64,000 nucleotides of DNA from Variovorax saccharolyticus. Its GTDB lineage: Bacteria > Pseudomonadota > Gammaproteobacteria > Burkholderiales > Burkholderiaceae_C. The notes under the pieces are model-generated. The model saw only the letters and a program-made list of their open reading frames with translations, was not told where the DNA came from and ran no database searches. Made by a program: the position numbers and the translations under genes. This document shows positions 9,042-16,107 of this stretch, piece after piece; position 1 is the stretch's first letter; every line of letters begins with the position of its first letter. The DNA lies in NCBI RefSeq assembly GCF_030316765.1, contig NZ_JASZYT010000013.1, forward strand, positions 62,001 through 126,000, in the 5' to 3' direction.

Positions 9042-10298
9042 TCAAGGACAGGCCGGCACGTCGCGCGACCCGATCTTGAATTCGTCGGGCTTCATGCCGA
9101 GCAGCTGGTCGACGTTGTCGACCTTGCTGTGCACCTTGTTGAACAGGTTGCCCTGTGCATCCTTCACCACCTCGGTGACGAAGGTCGTGCCGATGGCCTG
9201 CCGGTTGGCGTCCAGCTTGACGTCGCCGTTCGGCGTCTTGAGCGTCAGCTTCGAGAGGGCTTCGCGGTACTTGGCCTGGTTGTTCGACAAGTCGCCGTTC
9301 ACCGCGGCCAGACCGTCGAGCGCGGCCTTCATGTTCACGTAGTAGACGTAGGCGAACAGGCTCGGGCTCGGGAAGCCGCCGGCCGACACCGGGTAGGTCT
9401 TCTGGTAGTCGGCGACGAAGGCTTTCCATTGGGCGCCGTCGTAGGCGTCGGCCAGCGGACCGGCCGATAGCGTGCCGACCAGAGAATCGCGCCGCTTGCC
9501 CTTGTAGTTCAGCACGTCCTGGCTGACCGTGATCGAACCGCCGAGCATGGGCTTGTCGCCGCCGGAATTCTCGTACTGGGTCAGGAAATTGACCGCATCG
9601 GCGCCGCCCAGCACGACCAGCAGCGCGTCCACGTCCTTGGGGATCGTGGCGATCACCGACGAGTAGTCCTTGCCGCCCAGCGGCACCCAGGCCTTGAGCG
9701 GCACCTTGCCGCCGAGCTTGCAGTATTCGGCCATGAAGCCCTGCACCTGCGAGTAGGGGAAAGCGTAGTCCTCGGCGATCACCATGGTGCGCTTGTAGCC
9801 CTTGGCAAGCGCCGCCTTGCCCAGGCCCATCATCCACTGCCCGCCGTCGGTGTTGAAGCGGAAGAAGTTCGGGCTCGGGCTGGTCAGCGTCGTGCCCTGC
9901 GCGCCCGAGCCGCCGTTGATGAAGGTCACCTGCGGCTGGGTCTTGGAATAGTCCTTGACCGCGATGCCCTCGCCGCCGGACAGCGGGCCCACCATGATGT
10001 CGACCTTGTCCTGCTCGACCAGCTTGCGCGTGGCATTCACCGCCACGTCCGGCTTGGCGTCGGACGAGGCCTTGATGATCTCGATCTTGCGGCCCGCGAC
10101 CGTGCCGCCGCGCTCCTTCACGGCCAGTTCGGCGCCACGCATGCCGTCGGCGCCGCCGGCCGCGAACGGGCCTTCGAGCGTGGCCAGCAGGCCGATCTTC
10201 ACGGGCTGGCCCTGGGCCCAGGCCGAACCGAGCAACGCGCTTGCCGCTGCCGCACCCAAGATGGAACGCACCCAGATTCGCTTCGTCGTCTTTTTCAC
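9042..10298 (-). CDS. Branched-chain-type ABC transporter periplasmic substrate-binding protein
   Basis: A 418-residue type I periplasmic binding protein. The start is the GTG at 10298: AGGAGAC sits five bases upstream and the GTGA overlaps the permease stop. An upstream in-frame ATG at 10364 lies within the permease gene. A basic/hydrophobic signal peptide ends near Ala28-Gln29. The mature protein begins PVKIGLLATLEGPFAAGG, the usual opening of LivK-like domains, and carries GPLSGGEG and FINGGSGAQG ligand-pocket loops. Cys pairs (EYCK and the C-terminal PACP) might form a disulphide. It delivers substrate to LivH/LivM of the same operon. The family includes aromatic-acid, amide and amino-acid binders, so the ligand is open. 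Confidence 0.9.
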   Translation of the reverse strand: MKKTTKRIWVRSILGAAAASALLGSAWAQGQPVKIGLLATLEGPFAAGGADGMRGAELAVKERGGTVAGRKIEIIKASSDAKPDVAVNATRKLVEQDKVDIMVGPLSGGEGIAVKDYSKTQPQVTFINGGSGAQGTTLTSPSPNFFRFNTDGGQWMMGLGKAALAKGYKRTMVIAEDYAFPYSQVQGFMAEYCKLGGKVPLKAWVPLGGKDYSSVIATIPKDVDALLVVLGGADAVNFLTQYENSGGDKPMLGGSITVSQDVLNYKGKRRDSLVGTLSAGPLADAYDGAQWKAFVADYQKTYPVSAGGFPSPSLFAYVYYVNMKAALDGLAAVNGDLSNNQAKYREALSKLTLKTPNGDVKLDANRQAIGTTFVTEVVKDAQGNLFNKVHSKVDNVDQLLGMKPDEFKIGSRDVPACP

Positions 10299-11437
10299 GG
10301 TTGTCTCCTGTGGTTGGAAGTCATTGGCTGCGCCGGACCGAAGCGAAGCCGGAGCTTCGCCCACAGACCGAGCAGGCCGTCAGGGGAAAACAGGACGATG
10401 GCGAGGAACACGCCGCCGATCACGAGGTTGAAGCGCTCGCGGTCGATCAGGTCGATCGCGAAGGTCTGGAGCAGCACGAAGATCAGCGCCCCGAGGAAGG
10501 CGCCCAAGGGGTGCTTGACGCCGCCCAGCACGGCGATGACCAGGATGTTGATGAGCCAGCCGGTGCCCACCGAGCCGGGCGTCATCAGCGCGTTGTACCA
10601 AGCGAGCAGGATGCCGCCCACCGCGGCGATCAGGCCCGACAGGGCATAGGCCGCGACCCGGTGCGACACCACGGCGTAGCCCAGCGCGCCCATGCGGCGC
10701 GGGTTGTCGCGAATGCCCTGCAACGCGATGCCGAATGGCGTCCGCACCACGTGGCTGACCAGCCAGTACGCGCCCAGGGCACAGGCCAGCGAGAGCCCGT
10801 AGAACGGCACGGGGTCGCGCCAGTTGATGCCGAACACGGTCGGCGGCTTGAGTTCGCGCAGCCCCTGGAAGCCGTTGAACACGCTGTAGTTCTGCAGCAC
10901 CAGGTAGTAAAACGCGACACCGATCGCCAGCGTGATCATGATGGTGTAGATGCCTTCGGTACGCACCGAGAGCCAGCCGATCAGCGCGGAGCTCAGGACC
11001 GCAATGACGATGGCGACGGGTACCGCCAGCCACCAGGGCCAGCCAAGGCTGATCTCGGCACTGCTGCTGTGGCCGAACACGGCCAGGGCGTAGCCCGCGA
11101 TGCCGGCGACCGTCATCTGCGCCAGCGACACCATGCCGCCGTAGCCGGCCAGGAAGCTGAGCGAGAGCGCGATCATCCCGAGCACGAGCGTCTGCGCGCC
11201 GACCTGGAACGTCAGGAAGGGGCTGGCGACGAACGGGAAGGCCAGCAGCGCCAGCACGACGACCAAGTGGCGAAGCGCGGGCCGGGGCCAGCTGAAGGCC
11301 GGGGCGCCGGTCTCGTCGGAAGCGGTCGCACCGCCGAGCGCCGCGGCCGGAAGCGGCATGGCGGCAGCGCCTCGGCCGCCCGCTGCGGCCGAGGCCGCCG
11401 AGGAGTTCATGGCCTTGCGCCACTGCGAGGCACTCAT
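10295..11437 (-). CDS. Branched-chain-type ABC transporter permease (LivM-like)
   Basis: A 380-residue inner-membrane permease with about nine or ten hydrophobic segments. An N-terminal cytoplasmic extension of about 55 residues, rich in Ala and Gly, precedes the first helix (LRHLVVVLALLAFPFV). Typical LivM features are GYGGMVSLAQM, RTEGIYTIMITLAIG, GIRDNPRRMGALGY (the EAA-like loop contacting the ATPase) and GGVKHPLGAFLGAL. It starts three bases after the LivH-like stop, and its own stop overlaps the binding-protein GTG. It forms a heterodimeric channel with the LivH-like protein. The long N-terminal tail is not needed for the fold, so a later start at Met10 or Met27 is possible. Confidence 0.88.
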   Translation of the reverse strand: MSASQWRKAMNSSAASAAAGGRGAAAMPLPAAALGGATASDETGAPAFSWPRPALRHLVVVLALLAFPFVASPFLTFQVGAQTLVLGMIALSLSFLAGYGGMVSLAQMTVAGIAGYALAVFGHSSSAEISLGWPWWLAVPVAIVIAVLSSALIGWLSVRTEGIYTIMITLAIGVAFYYLVLQNYSVFNGFQGLRELKPPTVFGINWRDPVPFYGLSLACALGAYWLVSHVVRTPFGIALQGIRDNPRRMGALGYAVVSHRVAAYALSGLIAAVGGILLAWYNALMTPGSVGTGWLINILVIAVLGGVKHPLGAFLGALIFVLLQTFAIDLIDRERFNLVIGGVFLAIVLFSPDGLLGLWAKLRLRFGPAQPMTSNHRRQP

Positions 11438-11440
11438 GGC

Positions 11441-12394
11441 TCAGGCCGCCTTTCCCATGATCCCGCGCGGGCGGAAGGCCAGCACGCCGATCAGGATCAC
11501 GAAGGTCAGCACCACGCTGTAGGTCGGTGCGTAGGCCAGTCCGTAGGTTTCGGCCAGGCCCAGGATGGCGGCGCCGGTCGCCGCGCCGATCACGCTGCCC
11601 ATGCCGCCGACGATGACCACGATCAACGAGGCCAGCAGAAGCCGGATGTCTTCGCCGGGCACCATCGACAGTTCGACCGCGCCGATCACGCCGCCCAGTC
11701 CGGCCAGGCCGGCGCCGAGCGCGAAGGTGATCGCGAACACCAGGTTCACGTTGACCCCCGAGGCCGCGAGCATGCCGCGGTCGTCGACCCCGGCGCGGAT
11801 CATCATGCCCACCCGGGTGCGGTTGAGCAGCAGCCACAGCAACACGCCGATGGCGATCCCCATGAACAACAGGCTCAGCCTGTAGGCCGAATAGGCGTTG
11901 ATCAGCGGGATGTTGCGGATCGGTCCCTGCAGGAACTCGGGCGCCTCCATCTGGTGGACCTGTCCGGTGAAGATCCACAGCAGGATGTCCGCGATCACGA
12001 TCGACAGGCCGATGGTCACCATCGTCTGGCGCAACTCCTGGCCCTGCATGTGCCGCAGGATCAGCCACTGGATCGCGAGTCCCGCCACGGCCGAGGACAG
12101 GAAGCCCGCGGCCAGGGCGAGCGGCCACCAGCCCGTCCCGGCGGCCACCACGTAGCCGATGTAGCCCCCCAGCAGGTAGAGCGAGCCGTGCGCCAGGTTC
12201 ACGTTGCGCATCAGGCCGAACACCAGCGTGAAGCCGCTCGCGACGATGAAGTACAGCGAGGCCAGCGTCAGTCCGTTGAGCAGGGTGACCAGGTAGAGGC
12301 GCGGATTGTTGAACAGCGCCCAGGCCGAGAAGACCAGGATGGGGCCGCCGATCAGCAACCAGAACGCCAGCCGGGTCCGGGTTCGTCGCGCCAT
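11441..12394 (-). CDS. Branched-chain-type ABC transporter permease (LivH-like)
   Basis: A 317-residue permease with eight or more hydrophobic segments. LivH hallmarks are GLTLASLYFIVASGFTLVFG, NLAHGSLYLLGGY, RAGVDDRGMLAASGVNV (ATPase-contact loop) and GGMGSVIGAATGAAILGL. The ATG at 12394 overlaps the preceding stop as TGATG. A GTG directly before it (12397) is an equally possible start and would add one residue. It partners the LivM-like protein. This gene order (amidohydrolase, permease, permease, binding protein, ATPase, ATPase) puts the transporter in the middle of a catabolic operon and suggests uptake of the substrate hydrolysed by the amidohydrolases. Confidence 0.88.
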   Translation of the reverse strand: MARRTRTRLAFWLLIGGPILVFSAWALFNNPRLYLVTLLNGLTLASLYFIVASGFTLVFGLMRNVNLAHGSLYLLGGYIGYVVAAGTGWWPLALAAGFLSSAVAGLAIQWLILRHMQGQELRQTMVTIGLSIVIADILLWIFTGQVHQMEAPEFLQGPIRNIPLINAYSAYRLSLLFMGIAIGVLLWLLLNRTRVGMMIRAGVDDRGMLAASGVNVNLVFAITFALGAGLAGLGGVIGAVELSMVPGEDIRLLLASLIVVIVGGMGSVIGAATGAAILGLAETYGLAYAPTYSVVLTFVILIGVLAFRPRGIMGKAA

Positions 12395-13677
12395 CACGCA
12401 GCGCGCTCCCAGGCCCGCCGCGAGGCGATCTCGGGCGCCTTGGCGAACTCGCCGTCCTTCATCACGGCGAGGATCCGCTTCGGGTCGCGCAGTATCGACA
12501 GGTTGGCCAGCGGGTCGCCGTCGACCAGCATCAGGTCGGCCAGGTAGCCGTCCTTGATGCAGCCGAGTTCATCGGGCCGCATCATGATCTGGCCGCCGTA
12601 GAGCGTGGTCGAGCGGATTGCCTCCATCGGCGTGAAGCCCAGGTACTTGACGAAGAACTCGAGATCGCGTGCGTTCTGGCAGTGCGGCGTGAAGGCGAAG
12701 CCGTAGTCGCCGCCCGGCAGCACGCGGATGCCGCGCTTGTGCATCTTCGCCAGCGACACGATCGCGGCTTCCCACTCGGCCTCGTAGCCCATGCCGACCG
12801 CCATGTCGTGCGTGACGCCGTAGGGCTCGGCCTCGTACAGCATGGCATAGAGGATCGCGATGCCGGGCGCGACGAAGACCCGGTCCTTGGCCGCTTCCAG
12901 CATGTCGATCGCCTCGTCGTCGACGAAGCTGGCGTGATAGATCAGGTCGATGCCGTGCCGCAGCGCCTGCTTGACGCTCTCGGACGAGCGCGCATGGGCG
13001 ATGCCGCGCTTGCCGCGGATGCGCACCTCGCGCATCGCGGCCTCGACCTCCTCGTCCATCATCCAGGTGGTCTCGGACGGCGACTGCGGCGTGAAGTTGT
13101 CGCCCGACAGGTTCATCTTGACCGAGTCGACGCCGTACTTGAGGAACAGCCGCACCGCCTTGCGCATCTCCTCGGGGCCCGAGATGTTGACGCCGAAGCT
13201 GAACTCGGGGAAGGGCAGGTGCGGCAGGGTCTCGTCGCCGAGGCCGCCGACCACGGTGATCTCCTGGCTGGCCGCGAGATAGCGCGGCCCGGGGATCTGG
13301 CCGGCATTGATCGCATTGCGGATCACGACGTCGAGTCGCGGCTTGGCGCAGGCAGCGCCGACGCAGGAGGTGAAGCCGGCCTCGAGGTAACGCTTGGCGA
13401 CCTTGGCGCACCACAGCACGTGCTCCTCCAGGGGCAGGGTCTGGATCTCTGCCAGCGTGGCGGCATCGTTCCACGAGAAGTGCGTGTGCGCCTCGCACAT
13501 GCCGGGCATCAGCGTGGCGCCGGCGCCGTCGATCACGGTGGCGCCGCCAGGCGCGATCGGTGCCGTGCTGCGGCCGACCTGGCGGATGCGGTTGCCGCGC
13601 ACCAGCACGCTGCCGGTGTAGGGGTTCTGCCCCGTGCCGTCGAGGATGCGGACGTTGGTGAAGACGACATCGGCCAT
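12394..13677 (-). CDS. Metal-dependent amidohydrolase family protein (second of a tandem pair)
   Basis: A 427-residue cytoplasmic amidohydrolase with the composite urease-superfamily layout: an N-terminal beta-sandwich piece (residues 1-57), a TIM barrel, and a returning sandwich with the IKDGYLADLMLVDGDPL motif. Metal and catalytic residues visible are the HxH pair His64/His66, a possible carboxylated lysine in DSVKMNLS (Lys187), His228 (IAHARSS), His248 (IYHASF) and Asp324 (LPGGDYGF). It probably hydrolyses a C-N bond of an imidazolidinone, amide or peptide-like substrate, as in prolidase/imidazolonepropionase relatives. It is strongly similar in layout to the gene immediately upstream, 12 bases away. 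The exact substrate is unknown. Confidence 0.88.
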   Translation of the reverse strand: MADVVFTNVRILDGTGQNPYTGSVLVRGNRIRQVGRSTAPIAPGGATVIDGAGATLMPGMCEAHTHFSWNDAATLAEIQTLPLEEHVLWCAKVAKRYLEAGFTSCVGAACAKPRLDVVIRNAINAGQIPGPRYLAASQEITVVGGLGDETLPHLPFPEFSFGVNISGPEEMRKAVRLFLKYGVDSVKMNLSGDNFTPQSPSETTWMMDEEVEAAMREVRIRGKRGIAHARSSESVKQALRHGIDLIYHASFVDDEAIDMLEAAKDRVFVAPGIAILYAMLYEAEPYGVTHDMAVGMGYEAEWEAAIVSLAKMHKRGIRVLPGGDYGFAFTPHCQNARDLEFFVKYLGFTPMEAIRSTTLYGGQIMMRPDELGCIKDGYLADLMLVDGDPLANLSILRDPKRILAVMKDGEFAKAPEIASRRAWERAA

Positions 13678-13689
13678 GTGCTTCTCCTG

Positions 13690-14982
13690 TCAGGCCGTGG
13701 CCCAGCGCGTGGTGCGCGCCGAGCGCAGCGGCGGCGCGCGGTGGAACTCGCCGTCCTTCATGACGGCCAGGATGCGGGCCTTGTCCTGCAGCACCGTGAT
13801 GTCGGCCAGCGGGTCGCCGTCGATCAGCAGGATGTCGGCCAGATAGCCTTCGCGGATGTAGCCGAGCACCTTGCCCATGCGCATCATCGGACCGCCCCAG
13901 GCGGTGGCCGACAGCAGCGCTTCCATGGGGCTCATGCCGACGTACTTGACGAAGTATTCGAGGTCCTTGGCGTTGGTACCGTGCGGCGTCCAGGCAAAGC
14001 CGTAGTCGCCGCCCGGCAGGATGCGCACCCCGCGCCGGCGCAGCGCGCGCATGCTCTCGACCGCCGCCTCTAGCTCGCGGTGGTAGCCCATCTTCTTCGT
14101 CACCTCGGGTGTCAGGCCCCACTGGCTCGCGTGATGGGAGGTGTTGATGAGCCAGGCCAGCCCCGGCGCGATGAAGTGCTCGGTCTTGTGGGCCTCGAGC
14201 ATGTCGAGCGCCTCGGTGTCGGTGAAGCTGGCGTGGTAGATCACCTCGATGCCCTGCTTGACGCATTGCTTGATCGACCAGGTGGAGCGCGCATGCGCGG
14301 CGACGCGTTTGCCCCAGGCCTTGGCTTCCTGCACGCAGACCGTGATCTCTTCCTCGGTGAACTGGCTCATCTCGCTCGGCATGCCGGTGATCGACTCGCC
14401 CGAGAGGTTGATCTTCACGGAGTCGACGCCGTACTTGGCGAACATGCGCACGCAGCGGCGCATCTCCTCGGCGCCGCTGACGATCGCGCCGAAGGCGAAC
14501 TCGGGCTGCGGCAGGTGCGGCCGGGTGGTGTCGCCGAGGCCGCCGGGCACGGTGATCTCCTGGCTGGCCGCGAGGTAGCGCGGGCCGACGATGGTGCCGT
14601 CGTTGATCGCGTTGCGGATCACGACGTCGAGCCGCGGCTTGGCGGTGGCGGCGCCGACGCAACTGGTCCAGCCCATGTCGAGGTAGCGCTTGGCCACCTC
14701 GGCGCACCAGAGGATGTGCTCCTCGGGCGGCATGCGCTGGATGGCATCGAGGCTGGGCTGGTCGTTCCACGAGAAGTGCGTGTGGGCCTCGACCATGCCG
14801 GGCATCAGGAAGGCGCCGGCGCCATCGATCACCTGCGCTCCGGACACCGGCGCCGGTCGCGCGCCGTAGCCGGTCTTGACGACACGCGCGATCCGGTTGC
14901 CCTGCACCAGCACGTCGCCGCTGAAAGGCGCCTCGCCGCCGCCGTCGAAGATCCGCACGTTGGTGAACAGGACGTCGGCCAT
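13690..14982 (-). CDS. Metal-dependent amidohydrolase family protein (first of a tandem pair)
   Basis: A 430-residue paralogue of the downstream gene. The start at 14982 is supported by AGGAGACTGACC directly upstream; the longer open frame to 15171 crosses the repeat region and is not credible. It has the same plan: MADVLFTNVRIFDG opening, PGMVEAHTHFSW with His67/His69, DSVKINLS, AAHARST, IYHASFTD, LPGGDYGFAWTP and a GYIREGYLADILLIDGDPL close. It is the first gene of the long minus-strand operon, so a promoter should lie in 14983-15306. Two divergent but collinear copies suggest two related substrates or sequential steps. Confidence 0.88.
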   Translation of the reverse strand: MADVLFTNVRIFDGGGEAPFSGDVLVQGNRIARVVKTGYGARPAPVSGAQVIDGAGAFLMPGMVEAHTHFSWNDQPSLDAIQRMPPEEHILWCAEVAKRYLDMGWTSCVGAATAKPRLDVVIRNAINDGTIVGPRYLAASQEITVPGGLGDTTRPHLPQPEFAFGAIVSGAEEMRRCVRMFAKYGVDSVKINLSGESITGMPSEMSQFTEEEITVCVQEAKAWGKRVAAHARSTWSIKQCVKQGIEVIYHASFTDTEALDMLEAHKTEHFIAPGLAWLINTSHHASQWGLTPEVTKKMGYHRELEAAVESMRALRRRGVRILPGGDYGFAWTPHGTNAKDLEYFVKYVGMSPMEALLSATAWGGPMMRMGKVLGYIREGYLADILLIDGDPLADITVLQDKARILAVMKDGEFHRAPPLRSARTTRWATA

Positions 14983-15039
14983 GGTCAGTCTCCTACCTGG
15001 CTGTTGCTTGTTGCGGGGGCGCTTGCGGTTGCCGGGGCG

Positions 15040-15135
15040 CGTGCCGAGGGCACCGGGTGGCCCCCTCCGCTCATGTCCCCCGCCTTCGGCTCCTCCTTTA
15101 CTTCGCTGCGGGGGCCACCCGATGCCCTCGGCACG
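15040..15135 (-). repeat. Structured repeat, copy A: 26-bp stem around a conserved core
   Basis: Arms 15040-15065 and 15110-15135 are complementary at 25 of 26 positions. The single exception is C15053/A15122 on the plus strand, which is a G-U pair when read as minus-strand RNA. The 44-base interior (15066-15109), read on the minus strand, starts GCAGCGAAGTAAAGGAGGAG, contains the small hairpin GCC-GAA-GGC, and ends GGGGGACATGAGCGGA. It matches the interior of copy B almost base for base, while the stem sequences of the two copies are unrelated. In minus orientation it would lie in the 5' leader of the amidohydrolase operon, about 58 bases before the ATG. Confidence 0.8.
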
Positions 15136-15180
15136 GGAAACGCCGTGTCGCGCTGGCCGAGGATGAACCACTGACTTGAC

Positions 15181-15276
15181 GGCTCACGCCGATGGTGTGC
15201 TCTGCGCAGCGAAGTCAAGGAGGAGGCCGAAGGCCGGGGGACATGAGCGGAGCAGAGTACGCCGTCGGCGTGAGCC
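15181..15276 (+). repeat. Structured repeat, copy B: 25-bp stem around the same core
   Basis: Arms 15181-15205 and 15252-15276 pair at 22 of 25 positions by Watson-Crick rules. The other three (193/264, 196/261, 199/258 in the last three digits) are all U-G or G-U when read as plus-strand RNA. The 46-base interior starts GCAGCGAAGTCAAGGAGGAG, holds a hairpin GGCC-GAA-GGCC that is one pair longer than in copy A on both sides, and ends GGGGGACATGAGCGGA. It is oriented opposite to copy A and to both flanking genes. Confidence 0.8.
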
Positions 15277-15306
15277 CGCCCCGACCCGCAAAAGCTCGGT
15301 GTCATC

Positions 15307-16107
15307 CTAGATGCTCCTCCCCTGCGCCGCGAGGAAGTCGCGCAGTTCGCGCTGGCATTCCTCGGGCCGTTCGATCGGGGTCCAGTGGCCGCAGCGCGGC
15401 AGCACCACGACCCGCTTGCTGGCGGCACGGTGCAGCCGTTCGGCCATTGCGCGCACGGCTTGCGGCGGCGCGACGCCGTCCTCGTCACCGGTCACGAGCA
15501 GCACCGGCGCCTCGATCTGCTCGACCGCGGCGGCCTGGGCGCCGGCCAGCGCTTCGCAGCTTCGGGCGTAGGCCTCGCCGTCCTGGCGCATCAGGCTCTC
15601 GCGCACGTAGGCGACCGCCACCGGAAGCCGCTGGCGGGTGTCGGCGGAGATGGCACCCTGCAGCAGCGCCTGGGTGATCTCCTGCATGCCCGTCGCGCCC
15701 TCGCGCGCCTTGGCGGCCCGCGCGGTCATTGCGGCCCGCGCCGCATCCGGCGGCGCAATCAGCGGTCCGAACAGCGCCACGCTCGCGACCCGCTTCGGAT
15801 GCAGGGCAGCGATGTGCTGGCACACTATGGTGCCCATCGAATGGCCGACCCAATGGGCTCGCGCCACCTTGAGGCGATCGCAGACATCGAGCAGGGTCGC
15901 GACATAGCGCTCGATCGACAGCGCGCCCTCGGCGCGTTGCGAGCGGCCGCTGCCCGGCAGGTCGATCCGGATCACCCGGTGCCGCGCCATCGCCGGCATC
16001 AGGGGCGTGTAGGTGTTGCCGCTGCCGCCAAGCCCGTGCACGCAGACGATGGCCGGGCCCTCGCCTTCTTCTTCCACCGCGATGCGGTCGATCAACTGGA
16101 AGCCCAT
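15307..16107 (-). CDS. Alpha/beta-fold hydrolase
   Basis: A 266-residue hydrolase of the meta-cleavage-product/enol-lactone hydrolase type. Seen: the oxyanion-hole motif VHGLGGSGNT near 24-32, nucleophile elbow GHSMGT with Ser90, an acid in VTGDEDGVAPP, and the catalytic His in RCGHWTPIERPEE near the C-terminus. No signal peptide is visible, so it acts in the cytoplasm. It begins three bases after the fumarylacetoacetase-like gene, so the two form an operon read away from the TetR regulator. It probably hydrolyses an ester, lactone or C-C bond. The link to the 12-gene operon downstream is plausible but unproven because the repeat region separates them. Confidence 0.87.
   Translation of the reverse strand: MGFQLIDRIAVEEEGEGPAIVCVHGLGGSGNTYTPLMPAMARHRVIRIDLPGSGRSQRAEGALSIERYVATLLDVCDRLKVARAHWVGHSMGTIVCQHIAALHPKRVASVALFGPLIAPPDAARAAMTARAAKAREGATGMQEITQALLQGAISADTRQRLPVAVAYVRESLMRQDGEAYARSCEALAGAQAAAVEQIEAPVLLVTGDEDGVAPPQAVRAMAERLHRAASKRVVVLPRCGHWTPIERPEECQRELRDFLAAQGRSI

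Follow-up and report, generated by a model that had tools for sequence, protein, structure and literature searches.

Layout and core of the hairpin pair

The window, i.e., the whole stretch of 64,000 nucleotides that was analysed, carries a pair of hairpins in head-to-head order between an alpha/beta hydrolase and an amidohydrolase gene, both encoded on the minus strand (Table 1). At 10295-14982 two tandem amidohydrolase genes (Pfam Amidohydro_1) adjoin two branched-chain amino-acid permease genes, and the mechanical open reading frame 13690-15171 crosses hairpin A and overstates the start of the gene. Each hairpin is about 96 nt long, with a stem of 25-26 bp enclosing a core of 44-46 nt; the two cores diverge, and the stems of the two hairpins of a pair were seen by eye to differ. 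The initial annotation had described the two hairpins from the letters of the window, and this observation was confirmed far beyond chance, with core lengths of 44 and 46, stems and coordinates as claimed. Its count of one wobble position in A and three in B, every one G-U on the strand carrying the core, was correct (25 pairs each, no A-C), and so was the inner hairpin longer by one pair in B. On the core-sense strand hairpin A folds with -70.6 kcal/mol (z -6.5) and hairpin B with -65.9 kcal/mol (z -7.9), while the opposite strands give the weaker values of -66.8 and -51.5 kcal/mol. Past the stem lies a C-rich terminal motif, for which inspection by eye gave CGCCCYGAAC in many copies from Variovorax; in the flank profile of the hairpins conservation 3' of the stem is near background past about +11.

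Table 1. Features of the paired element in the window. Hairpins A and B both belong to the 40 hairpins used for building the covariance model whose matches are given.
Feature	Position	Strand	Description
Whole paired element	15033-15287		About 255 bp, head-to-head hairpin pair; recurs as a block at other loci of the genus; limits from the block match at 534-788 of the 14500-15800 query (1.3 kb)
Hairpin A	15040-15135	minus	Outer stem 15110-15135 with 15040-15065; core 15066-15109 (44 nt)
Hairpin A, covariance-model match	15029-15138		98.7 bits, E 4.7e-22
Inner hairpin of A	15082-15090	minus	GCC-GAA-GGC, GCCGAAGGC
Spacer between both 5' arms	15136-15180		45 nt
Hairpin B	15181-15276	plus	Outer stem 15181-15205 with 15252-15276; core 15206-15251 (46 nt)
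Hairpin B, covariance-model match	15177-15288		106.1 bits, E 7.3e-24
Inner hairpin of B	15225-15235	plus	GGCC-GAA-GGCC, GGCCGAAGGCC; one pair longer than in A
3' terminal C-rich motif past the stem	15277-15286	plus	CGCCCCGACC

The core exists in a second, commoner form, ACATTCGCGG, which lacks the AUG. In the covariance model of 40 representatives GGAGGAG and GGGGGACA stay unpaired and hardly vary; adjacent to them, changes at a bulged base go with changes at a two-base step. Among 120 hairpins tallied, the step took the forms GAAAT/TTC (88), GAAGT/TGA (24), GACAT/GTC (2) and GGCAT/GCC (1); of the remaining five, three fell outside the pattern, L090 was misread and has ACATGAGCGG, and L052 breaks the rule. 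The GAAAT/TTC and GACAT/GTC forms are Watson-Crick paired, and GAAGT/TGA makes a tandem G-A step. An AUG was found in 12 of the 40 representatives, solely with the GAAGT/TGA form, and GGAGGAG is invariant also where the AUG is absent. The element was therefore rejected as a translational control element acting through a Shine-Dalgarno sequence and start codon, as the initial annotation had considered. At one orthologous site the core form is swapped between two loci (L003 versus L010), which hints at exchange between copies. Two loci of one metagenome-assembled genome (L073:1215-1321 and L122:2311-2417) carry arms of both stem types around a single core; these mixed hairpins are either a deletion product of the pair or an assembly artefact.

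Copy number, spread and insertion of the pair

The exact core was found four times in this genome, the reversed control pattern not at all, and 6 of 61 genomes, counting this one, contain the core, so the proposed search of the genome and its relatives was positive. Comparison of the exact-core loci revealed that the left and right hairpins travel together, and the window's 1.3-kb query matched over the whole block, with identical limits, at many unrelated places in other genomes of the genus. Pairing of A and B as one recurring unit, like the commoner core form, is beyond the reading of a single window. With the covariance model 5 hairpins were found in this genome (19 candidates scored). It was further applied to 80 loci among the matches listed in the scan of species genomes, coming from Variovorax, Hydrogenophaga, Xylophilus, Acidovorax, Pseudorhodoferax, Ramlibacter, Rhodoferax, Ideonella and others. 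After removal of 19 overlapping hits of 145, 126 non-overlapping hairpins remained for these listed matches, comprising 42 close pairs, 30 singles and 13 that lay too close to a contig end for assignment. Head-to-head order was observed in 41 of the 42 close pairs, and the gap between the paired model hits was 30-49 in 39 of them, both among the matches listed. A pattern-based count, whose set overlaps the model-based one, gave 32 of 33 pairs head to head, with a spacer of 39-47 nt in the 32 pairs listed. The single hairpins look mostly like remnants of pairs. A search for a third hairpin in the spacer gave a mean z of -0.58 for 41 spacers, which is too weak a signal for a claim. Two same-strand hairpins beside a pair (L075:5961-6333) are the only close same-strand neighbours among the matches listed for the 80 loci.

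At least 93 of 200 genomes of the family, from 72 of 141 genera, carry hairpins according to the covariance model; at most 19 candidates were scored per genome, and copy counts from this survey are thus lower bounds. In ten single-contig genomes, all chosen as known carriers, 3-79 hairpins per genome were counted. Of an order-wide sample of 200 genomes, 7 matched: 3 from the same family, this one included, and 4 from two other families, again head to head and with longer spacers in several. As a negative control, 89.5 kb around Y1 transposase genes contained no model match. Matches were found on three Variovorax megaplasmids, which were without usable annotation, and none in phage records. The 15-mer GGGGGACATGAGCGG matched viral contigs 33 times, and these matches were dismissed as chance, since GGAGGAG lay at most 40 nt upstream in 0 of 33.

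The site of the window is empty in 18 of 19 relatives that match both sides and were read, the two genes almost touching there, which shows that the unit inserts. In the exception, G023, one hairpin is present and the other survives as a remnant. Seven relatives match both sides of a second site (L004), which is filled in one (again G023) and empty in six; for a third (L013) the left flank was found in most other genomes, with hardly any right flank in the nine loci looked at. Recurrence of the block and empty orthologous sites support the mobile element which the initial annotation had offered as one of two explanations. Its addition that such an element makes the matched stems did not hold in the simple form of stems made fresh as perfect palindromes, since the stems contain many wobble pairs and few A-C pairs. 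No target-site duplication was resolvable at the empty sites, which are too diverged for more than a weak test.

Insertion is between genes and mostly beside gene ends. Using gene calls from a GC3 heuristic rather than annotation, by which some flanking genes were evidently missed, 61 units were scored and 24 at locus edges left unscored: the flanking genes are convergent in 20, tandem in 34 and divergent in 7 (one inside a called open reading frame). The excess of convergent over divergent sites has a P-value of 0.019, with some units orthologous and hence not independent. No predicted gene covers more than half of the unit in 60 of 61 cases, and 11 units overlap the end of a predicted open reading frame. 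The distribution of REP sequences reported in PMC3733652 resembles this placement near gene ends.

Resident copies keep their pairing. At the L004/L014 site, shared by two species, 0 of 190 hairpin bases changed versus 4 of 46 in the spacer (Fisher P 0.0013, calculated with 192), and the kilobases on either side show 38 and 62 base differences. Ten couples of corresponding hairpins from three further shared sites were compared over up to 25 outer pairs, and at most 2 pairs per couple were unpaired in one partner. Pairs differing on both sides numbered 1, 2, 2, 3, 3 and 6 in six couples and 11-13 in the other four. A difference of 11-13 out of 25 pairs at one shared site is more like replacement than slow compensation in place, and exchange between copies could be the source of all patterns seen in resident copies.

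Covariation and the strand that folds

The proposed covariance model gave a clear covariation signal. In the alignment of 40 hairpins, 91.5% of the cells pair, compared with 66.0% after shuffling and 33-44% with slid partners; double-sided changes occur in 30 of 37 base pairs, and the covariation score is 0.656 versus 0.181 for shuffled data. Another alignment (A2) still includes the 19 overlapping hits, and the 40-hairpin alignment therefore provides the cleaner count.

The expected enrichment of G-U on the core-sense strand was present across the copies. In the outer stems G-U versus A-C was 242:15 for 113 distinct stems, obtained with a filter that scores G-T as a pair and thereby favours G-U. 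These are the distinct ones among 119 stems with at least 20 of 25 positions paired; 4 truncated hits of 132 distinct ones were set aside, and 9 of 128 failed as chimeric, broken, low-paired or spurious. For the unfiltered hits of the covariance model, which itself scores G-U above A-C, the ratio was 275:27 (126 hairpins, among the matches listed), and for the 40 representatives 97:13, with G-U larger in 36 of the 38 that differ. Across the sets, G-U thus outnumbers A-C on the core strand by 7-16 to 1; P-values from the pooled counts overstate, as the copies are related. A transition in either arm makes G-U or A-C about equally easily, and an excess of G-U on the core strand thus requires this strand itself to fold. 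There is therefore strong support for selection on single-strand structure. Template-switch correction of imperfect palindromes, a known process, might keep the stems matched by mutation alone and free of selection. Such a process predicts G-U and A-C in about equal numbers on the core strand, contrary to the 242:15 and 275:27 observed, and leaves the invariant unpaired core unexplained; we regard it as highly improbable.

The other explanation of the initial annotation, selection on RNA structure, stood with respect to a selected single-strand structure, carried by covariation and G-U excess; RNA over folded DNA was not favoured, as the G-U excess is the same whichever way the neighbouring genes are transcribed, and each pair has one core on either strand. 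In pairs flanked by tandem genes, G-U versus A-C was 45:3 in sense and 48:2 in antisense hairpins, 20 hairpins each. The test comprised 34 of the 41 head-to-head pairs, the rest having no flanking gene on one side or, in the case of L126, lying inside a predicted open reading frame. A fold that mattered in read-through RNA would be expected to cost the antisense copies their G-U bias or to reverse it. A promoter local to each hairpin would give the same pairing in RNA.

The inner loop points in the same direction. A C-GNA-G loop was found in at least 101 of 118 copies read, with 67 GAA, 33 GCA and 1 GTA. The tally was made from 120 hairpins with 2 unreadable loops, and 101 is a low count, since several other loops were misplaced by the reading. 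Tetraloops, and not triloops, are usual in RNA hairpins. C-GNA-G loops are described as extraordinarily stable DNA mini-hairpins in PMC4686876. The GNA triloops favour a DNA fold as support and not proof, as RNA also can use triloops.

Structured RNA elements, acting in transcripts as stabilisers of 3' ends, terminators or protein-binding sites and spread by that function, would account for the extensive covariation and the G-U tolerance, for the strong RNA folds and for the position close to gene ends. Against them stand the equal antisense and sense bias, the GNA triloops and the head-to-head order, by which read-through from either flank first meets an antisense hairpin. No Rfam family reached its gathering cut-off in the window either, in line with the earlier remark that no named RNA family was recognised; sub-threshold matches were to six families of miRNA precursors and to BTH_s19 (12 bits of 153), the best being MIR839 (E 3e-7, 42.3 bits of 200). 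We therefore consider an RNA function unlikely. The equal G-U bias together with the C-GNA-G loops favours a folded single-stranded-DNA site over an RNA regulator, and the hairpins are most likely to be read as folded single-stranded DNA.

Likeness to known repeats and candidate mobilisers

Taken together, the element looks like a new, abundant REPIN-like family across many Comamonadaceae genomes. Our main reading, to which we assign a probability of roughly 0.6, is a family of non-autonomous, REPIN-like mobile DNA elements with a folded single-stranded-DNA site. Whenever the DNA becomes single-stranded, during replication, repair or as a cruciform, each core strand would fold. A putative protein would then bind the exposed GGAGGAG...GGGGGACA core, which the GNA mini-hairpin and the long stem would hold from opposite sides, and, acting in trans, would copy or move the pair. 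The stems of a pair plausibly differ because identical ones would form one long unstable palindrome.

The likeness to REPINs and BIMEs lies in inverted pairs at fixed spacing, intergenic position, many copies, singles as likely remnants and a strand-specific single-strand fold. Both the inverted doublet (41 of 42 close pairs, among the matches listed) and the high extragenic copy number (3-79 in the ten known carriers) of REP/REPIN sequences are present. In contrast to these, no conserved GTAG or CGTC tetranucleotide is found at the 5' foot (flank profile of 115 hairpins), the hairpin contains a conserved internal core and the pair two different stems. Its size of about 96 nt exceeds the REP palindrome of 21-65 nt given in PMC6006769. 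REPINs are inverted REP doublets proposed to move by a Y1 protein in trans (PMC3116915), and strand-specific recognition of REPs has precedent (PMC3116915, PMC8266576).

A substrate of a Y1 transposase (RAYT or TIRYT) in trans is accordingly an obvious candidate, served by the genus's single chromosomal Y1 gene with GGGGACA nearby or by a diverged class missed by the Pfam profile. A Y1 match was obtained in 147 of 200 family genomes. Some RAYT-like genes are flanked by terminal inverted repeats (TIRs) sharing GGGGWSAS (PMC3733652), and some Y1 classes go with atypical secondary structures and no GTAG (PMC6006769). The hairpin contains GGGGACA; GGGGACAT fits GGGGWSAS at 7 of 8 positions in most copies and GGGGACAG, in a few, at all of them, and in this genome the Y1 locus has AATTGGGGACAC, and GGGGACAC lies near the Y1 gene. 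Against this assignment, the presence of Y1 is independent of that of hairpins (Y1 in 71 of 93 hairpin genomes versus 76 of 107 others, P 0.43), 22 of the 93 hairpin genomes lack a Y1 match, among them two in which 19 of 19 candidates scored positive, no hairpin was found by the covariance model at any of 27 Y1 loci, and GTAG and CGTC are missing from the hairpin foot. A diverged Y1 gene missed by the profile is possible. On balance we consider a Y1 mobiliser doubtful.

The TIRs of TIRYT genes (Di Nocera 2013, PMC3733652) are likewise long inverted or self-complementary repeats with families, dimers and a GGGGACA-like motif. They flank a Y1 gene, whereas the hairpin element is absent from the 27 Y1 loci, and in the part of their description seen no counterpart of the core and GNA loop was found.

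Searches of the open-licence literature on repeats and REP/RAYT in these genera and on structured RNAs of Burkholderiales listed no description of the element; strings derived from the core appeared there only in biomedical papers, unrelated by title. Integron attC sites likewise depend on how a single DNA strand folds and have variable stems, their R' and R'' core sites lying at the stem foot of gene cassettes; the element is conserved on the loop side, attC at the stem foot. Bacterial MITEs (ERIC, NEMIS, RUP) are short, non-coding and intergenic with inverted ends, as here, whereas the element consists of two separate hairpins with strand-specific wobble pairs. As the MITE of a duplex-DNA transposon it would be recognised by its outer inverted ends of about 10 bp, the hairpins being passengers; this agrees with the constant size of the unit and its CGCCCYGAAC-like inverted ends in Variovorax. 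The ends differ from genus to genus but the core hardly varies, the G-U asymmetry would be meaningless for duplex recognition, and no target duplication was seen in the weak test on diverged empty sites, so this explanation appears very unlikely. No transposon with the element's ends was found among the neighbour genes and Y1 genes. By eye, no transposase was noticed among the 25 clusters listed of proteins recurring beside hairpins, several of them at shared orthologous sites. Wide-set hairpins at two loci, tried as an autonomous form, enclose a gene for a DUF2306 membrane protein (L083) and a gene with no Pfam match (L007), and were rejected.

It is conceivable, if rather less than probable, that the element constitutes a new class of hairpin element, found in about half of the sampled family genomes, in which the folded DNA strand presents the purine-rich core, possibly as a G-rich fold, to a protein other than Y1, and in which the copies are kept in place by resident hosts; on this reading the element may benefit the host as well as itself. 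The REPIN-like family would give a major group of soil and water bacteria a repeat that is both widespread and strongly structured. It combines a very clean covariation signal with an orientation test by which selection on DNA and on RNA can be told apart, offers a 44-46-nt core as a defined bait for the protein that reads the hairpins, and raises the question of how paired hairpins spread without an identifiable transposase.

The Y1 genes themselves showed some features of their own. In the genus, exactly one Y1 transposase match was obtained in 23 of 25 genomes and none in the other two (loci L167-L196), and this gene looks like a domesticated, vertically kept RAYT. Locus L195 (G000:C12:840122-840445 plus flanks) is followed by an open reading frame that may encode a glutamate synthase. 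A GTCAGAT...GGGGACA motif was seen by eye near Y1 in about half of 30 loci. Around the Y1 gene of L169 (G047, around 1078-2722) GGGGACAGACCACGGT is repeated, a short repeat of another kind that likewise starts with GGGGACA.
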